From positions 1 to 23,360 of the IMG/VR virus record IMGVR_UViG_3300025128_000350: DNA of 23,360 bases. The stretch is one strand, 5' to 3'. Positions 20,680 to 20,925 of the stretch are shown one piece after another. The notes beneath the pieces are model-generated. The model searched no databases. It was given only the letters and a program-made list of their open reading frames with translations, and was not told the origin of the DNA. Position 1 is the stretch's first letter, and each line of letters begins with the position of its first letter. The DNA comes from a virus. The position numbers and the translations under genes are program-made.

Positions 20680-20925
20680 CACCTGTAAGGTCTGTGATGG
20701 CCCCCGCGTTATCCTTGTACGGGGTAGAGCAAAACTAGGTGTTGCCGCACCTGTCGAAAGAGTTTTGTTCGTGTGGTTTGCGAATCCCACGCCCAGCCGG
20801 TCTTGGCTGTGATCGGTTAGAAATACCTAGTCTGTGCATTGAAAAGTGTATCAATGCGAGGCGGGGGTCAGATTCATAATGCTCGTAAAGACTAGGGCAC
20901 AGCCACCCCTAACCACGACACAAGG
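20680..20925 (+). ncRNA. Candidate structured RNA (ncRNA or long 5' leader)
   Basis: This 246-nt part of the 302-nt non-coding stretch has no plausible gene but many complementary segments. GAGCAAAACT (20727-20736) pairs with AGTTTTGTTC (20761-20770; ten pairs, one G-U). Directly inside, AGGTG (20737-20741) pairs with CACCT (20748-20752), leaving GTCGAAAG unpaired. CCCCG (20702-20706) pairs with CGGGG (20720-20724). CAGCC (20794-20798) pairs with GGCTG (20805-20809). GCATTGA (20836-20842) pairs with TCAATGC (20851-20857), enclosed by CCTAGTC (20826-20832) and GACTAGG (20890-20896). GGGGT (20864-20868) with ACCCC (20905-20909) would add a pseudoknot. It follows the 17-mer and precedes the next Shine-Dalgarno. 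I match it to no known RNA family. Confidence 0.5.

Follow-up and report, generated by a model that had tools for sequence, protein, structure and literature searches.

GOLLD and ROOL RNAs are associated with phages, and HDV-like ribozymes contain nested pseudoknots with helix P1 at the 5' end. To our knowledge, the structured RNAs of lytic marine phages have hardly been catalogued. The put RNA of phage HK022 is a structured RNA that lies near an early promoter and does not depend on which genes lie downstream; it is about 70 nt long, has two stem-loops and acts in processive antitermination (PMC9378689). GOLLD and ROOL are large, ornate bacterial RNAs that fall outside known mechanisms (PMC12286853). 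Here we analyzed a window of 23,360 nucleotides from the IMG/VR virus record IMGVR_UViG_3300025128_000350, in which an undescribed structured RNA had been predicted within a stretch without a plausible gene. Covariation in homologues and the lack of an Rfam match both bear out that prediction, and the element is very probably a real and functional phage RNA of an undescribed kind, with a fold visibly preserved by evolution.

Eleven distinct sequences were obtained from IMG/VR (the window, L001, L105, L085, L095, L082, L086, L090, L089, L087 and L092), all of which belong to one marine phage lineage. L001 and L002 (94% identity) were found by searching with the downstream protein, and the others came from scanning for patterns and from using the upstream 86-aa protein as query. 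Because L086 and L090 do not differ in their helices, the statistics were based on ten rows. Two subgroups can be distinguished among the homologues, and L095 is a mosaic. At positions 1205-1500 of L095, the P1 and P2 region resembles one subgroup and P3 and the 3' leader resemble the other, which suggests recombination inside the RNA. With a covariance model, each carrying record showed a single copy, and the 54-kb G005, Pelagibacter phage HTVC023P and phage DSL-LC04 had none. Final pattern scans yielded no further homologues, the phage and plasmid collections contained none, and a scan of bacterial genomes gave one chance match. Pattern matches at L113 (Marinomonas), L109, L111, L134, L135, L097-L101, L103 and L104 were rejected as chance matches because they were single motifs without the other helices, several of them inside genes. 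The nearest relatives of the DNA polymerase are those of phage DSL-LC04 (56%), 023Pt_psg01 (54%) and Pelagibacter phage HTVC023P (51%); in two papers on related pelagiphages (PMC9599517, PMC12753301) non-coding RNAs go unmentioned. In Rfam 15 neither the window nor five other loci reached the gathering threshold of any family, and at E<=5 nothing was found for the window or L089. The Yar_2 match of L095 was a chance one, at 11.3 bits against the 50 needed. ARAGORN found neither tRNA nor tmRNA.

Eight helices are kept in the homologues while their sequence changes, and their coordinates are given in Table 1. RNAalifold unaided recovered P3, P4, P5, P6, P8 and P9; since P1 and P7 cross other helices, these two were added by eye. 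In the predicted fold two sets of helices cross; P1 and P9 make up one H-type pseudoknot, and P5 and P7 the other. The original prediction had overlooked both of these, together with P1, the most important helix, in which pairing positions 4 and 6 are each CG, UA or UG among homologues. P9 abuts the 3' strand of P1 in the window (20860/20861), and 12 nt separate P1 from P9 on the other side; in the second pseudoknot a 2-nt linker precedes the 6-bp P7 and no linker follows it. These are ordinary dimensions for H-type pseudoknots, so P1, P5, P7, P8 and P9 should be able to coexist, although P1 may alternate with P8/P9. Variation in P7 is limited to a GC to GU change, which is compatible with the helix rather than proof of it. 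The apical hairpin of P3 (20737-20752) is variable, and the outer two pairs of P4 are absent in some relatives. An extra pairing, TGTGC (20833) with GCACA (20897), was discarded since it is broken without compensation in two of the ten distinct homologues, L086 and L092.

Table 1. Features of the structured RNA locus (window coordinates)
Feature	Coordinates	Strand	Evidence or remarks
Promoter-like element TTGACT-N17-TAAGGT	20663..20691	+	Motif TTGACTATRAGAGTAA at 20663-20678; -10 hexamer weak; putative start of transcription
Structured RNA, P1 to P7	20699..20904	+	Alignment of 10 homologues, 53 pairs; MFE z -3.14
P1 5' strand GGCCCCCGC	20699..20707	+	Pairs with GCGGGGGTC 20861-20869; 100% paired
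P3 stem	20727..20770	+	20727-20734 with 20763-20770, extends to 20736/20761
P4 hairpin GTGTGG/CCACGC	20771..20792	+	Closing pair GC/UA/UG
P5 hairpin AGCCGGTC/GATCGGTT, loop TTGGCTGT	20795..20818	+	RNAalifold; inner pair CG/UA covaries
P7 5' strand GGCTGT	20805..20810	+	Within P5 loop (pseudoknot); pairs with 20899-20904; 100% paired
P8 5' strand CCTAGTC	20826..20832	+	Pairs with GACTAGG 20890-20896; 100% paired, two one-sided changes
P6 hairpin ATT/AAT	20838..20855	+	Outer pair AU, GU, GC among homologues
P9 5' strand GCGAG	20856..20860	+	Pairs with CTCGT 20882-20886; closing pair GU, AU, GC among homologues
P1 3' strand GCGGGGGTC	20861..20869	+	Inside P9 loop (pseudoknot)
3' strands of P9 (20882-20886), P8 (20890-20896), P7 (20899-20904)	20882..20904	+	
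Conserved leader ACCCCTAACCACGACACAAGGACC with Shine-Dalgarno AAGGA	20905..20934	+	Window's subgroup and mosaic L095 only
Downstream gene, PHROG 13625	20935..21291	+	PHROG E 2e-22; start predicted from L085

Much of the pairing that had been read from the window alone is indeed present. This includes the stem GAGCAAAACT/AGTTTTGTTC (20727-20736 with 20761-20770), which continues into AGGTG/CACCT (20737-20741 with 20748-20752), the 7-bp hairpin at 20836-20857 with the enclosing pairing now named P8, and the copies of CAGCC at 20794 and 20900 and of GGCTG at 20805. A proposed pseudoknot, GGGGT/ACCCC, can form in the window's own subgroup but not in the other, which has CTTTTC there. The suggestion that the two CAGCC copies compete for GGCTG held in one half: GGCTGT at 20805 pairs with ACAGCC at 20899 in 10 of 10 homologues, whereas the local hairpin 20794/20805 is broken, with no compensation, in 3 of the 10.

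The helix alignment comprises 53 pairs over ten rows, in which 97.9% of the cells are paired, and both-sided changes occur in seven pairs, amounting to 24 double-change cells. These numbers were compared with a tree-aware null in which the inferred substitutions were redistributed over the columns, branch by branch. Covarying pairs, whose absence would have refuted the original prediction, were present: 24 double-change cells against 3.9 expected (0/1000) and 519 paired cells against 472 +/- 8 expected (0/1000), figures that are approximate because the tree was built from the same recombining RNAs and the helices were partly chosen on the same alignment. Column shuffles gave an expectation of 9.1 double-change cells, with 0 of 500 reaching the observed number, and structures slid along the alignment had at most 5. 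When the test was limited to helices that can be read from the window by itself (P1, P3, P4 and P8), both measures gave 0/2000. P1 and P3 were significant individually, with 7 double-change cells against 0.4 expected (2/2000) and 11 against 0.8 (0/2000), respectively. P6, P7, P8 and P9 are unbroken in every homologue and vary too little for individual significance. Pairs are therefore kept through both-sided changes above the phylogenetic null, as in a conserved structured RNA.

On the plus strand, the segment from 20699 to 20904 had a z of -3.14 against dinucleotide shuffles, none of 200 being as good, so that a structure better than shuffled sequence was confirmed at these limits; at those of the original prediction the excess was modest (z -1.78, 9/200 as good). 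The ends were corrected because comparison with relatives gave better ones. A longer segment, 20627-20930, was not significant (z -0.91). Near relatives of the window had z values of -4.1 to -5.0, the more distant subgroup -1.4 to -2.5 and L095 -0.9; weaker values in the distant subgroup are expected because an ordinary folding program cannot score pseudoknots. The minus strand had a z of -0.73 against shuffles. The homologue alignment contains 69 G-U cells on the plus strand versus a single A-C cell; the plus-strand transcript is therefore the selected molecule. A protein-coding reading was rejected: as had been supposed, the stretch contains no gene, since the homologues share no frame, the longest stop-free run varies among them from 39 to 61 codons, and the lengths of indels are not divisible by three. 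The structure and its conservation are well supported, and the RNA is probably transcribed.

Each of the 11 distinct homologues has TTGACTATRAGAGTAA, with TAAGGT or TAAATT behind it, directly 5' to the RNA, and host RNA polymerase probably starts at this element. The product would be a non-coding RNA of about 206 nt in the window, the corresponding length being 204-237 nt among homologues. A second promoter-like copy, GTTGACTATAAGAGTAA...GTAAG at 23175-23201 of the window, lies before the next gene and has no RNA after it. Scanning for terminators revealed none of the standard intrinsic type where the RNA ends. L082, L086, L087, L089, L090 and L092 have a second promoter-like element, TTGACG-18-TAAAAT, about 12 nt after the RNA, which is therefore a separate unit there; the window's subgroup has neither a second promoter nor a T-run in this position. 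The T-run seen in one subgroup resembles the upstream repeat of the promoter. The leader ACCCCTAACCACGACACAAGGACC is identical in L001, L085, L095 and L105, ahead of different genes. It was also observed that TCCTTGT, within 20711-20720, is perfectly complementary to the ACAAGGA of the downstream Shine-Dalgarno (20919-20926), a match kept in near relatives and absent from L095.

The genes 3' to the RNA differ in L085, L095, L105 and L082; the window, L001 and L002 share the same one. Its start codon is more likely at 20935 (ATATG) than at 20929, because L085 has ACG in place of the window's ATG at 20929. A terminase small-subunit gene lies about 1 kb downstream. Just before it, at 21740-21770 of the window, there are 3.3 tandem copies of GGCGGGACC beside a long intergenic A/T-rich stretch, possibly a replication or packaging site. 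The cassette is missing from two relatives, L093 and L094. In L093, the sequences on either side of this empty site are 92-95% identical to those of carriers and overlap by 28 nt, which is the promoter repeat. The 54-kb record with the empty site has no copy at another place either. A search for a partner gene by presence and absence, using RNA-plus and RNA-minus genomes among three long records, found no convincing co-occurring gene.

Because the neighboring genes change, one subgroup has a promoter behind the RNA and an empty site exists, we favor an accessory RNA that acts autonomously over a riboswitch specific for one gene. Our preferred explanation, on which our confidence is evenly divided, is that the locus is an accessory cassette of promoter and RNA, and that its product is a stand-alone phage non-coding RNA acting in trans on a protein. 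The transcript would fold into two interlocked H-type pseudoknots, P1/P9 and P5/P7, P3 and P4 forming arms at the periphery. The conserved core of P5 loop, P8 and CTCGTAAAG would most likely be the surface for a host or phage protein during infection, and the RNA could be a regulator, scaffold or decoy that works on its own in trans. The cassette would be gained and lost when copies of the promoter repeat recombine.

The main rival, unlikely on balance but to be taken seriously, is a cis-acting leader, in which the nascent RNA would control whatever gene lies downstream, for example by put-like antitermination or through access to the ribosome binding site. The conserved ribosome-binding leader, which in the window's subgroup joins the RNA to the next gene, fits this as well; leader and Shine-Dalgarno are conserved there before changing genes. 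The invariable position of the RNA directly downstream of the promoter also argues for a leader, as does HK022 put, which is similarly placed and needs no dedicated protein (PMC9378689), although the present RNA is three times the length of put. Against it are the second promoter that one subgroup has right after the RNA, and the promoter copy at 23175, which lacks such an RNA. The TCCTTGT/ACAAGGA complementarity could possibly mask the ribosome site, but L095 does not have it despite the same Shine-Dalgarno leader.

Improbable, by comparison, is that promoter and stable structure are kept mainly for swapping neighboring genes, by analogy with the promoter-stem-loop cassettes, or PeSLs, of T4-like phages. 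The promoter repeats that flank the RNA in one subgroup, the empty site and the swapped neighbors would suit such a role. However, recombination needs identity of DNA rather than covariation of RNA, and double changes that keep pairs, G-U included, indicate selection on the RNA fold; moreover, PeSLs are described as promoter-terminator motifs (title cited in PMC4503421), not 200-nt pseudoknots. The originally suggested riboswitch or RNA switch dedicated to the gene at 20929/20935 is very improbable: the RNA does precede that gene in three sequences (the window, L001 and L002), but other genes follow it in L085, L095, L105 and L082, so that a constant association with genes of related function is lacking, the next gene has its own promoter in one subgroup, no RNA lies upstream of the gene's relatives at loci L003-L080, and the hairpin needed for mutually exclusive pairing is not conserved.

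The trans-acting cassette RNA may, more tentatively, represent a new class of phage non-coding RNA, compact and with a pair of H-type pseudoknots, which travels in a mobile accessory cassette and, while abundant marine bacteria are being infected, binds and redirects a host protein (polymerase, ribosome, nuclease or defense system). Its function is directly testable, given the well-supported fold, the defined ends, the promoter-like element and the existence in nature of genomes with and without the RNA whose flanks are nearly identical. Such an RNA would add an Rfam family and possibly an RNA-based mechanism of takeover or counter-defense.

Among known systems, the RNA resembles HDV-like ribozymes in having nested pseudoknots and a P1 at the 5' end. 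Assessed by topology, however, it lacks their P1/P2/P3/P4 double pseudoknot: the P1 3' strand lies in the P9 loop and not after a P3 hairpin, the first P1 pair is not a constant G-U, and Rfam gave no match. GOLLD and ROOL are considerably larger. With the PeSL cassettes of T4-like phages (cited in PMC4503421), described as promoter-terminator composites, the locus shares a portable promoter and structured element between exchanged genes, but here the structured element is a large covarying RNA that goes beyond a terminator. With its eight helices, two pseudoknots and greater length the RNA differs from HK022 put, in a comparison made by sequence; like put, it is independent of the gene that follows and lies, in all homologues, directly downstream of a promoter that is probably early.
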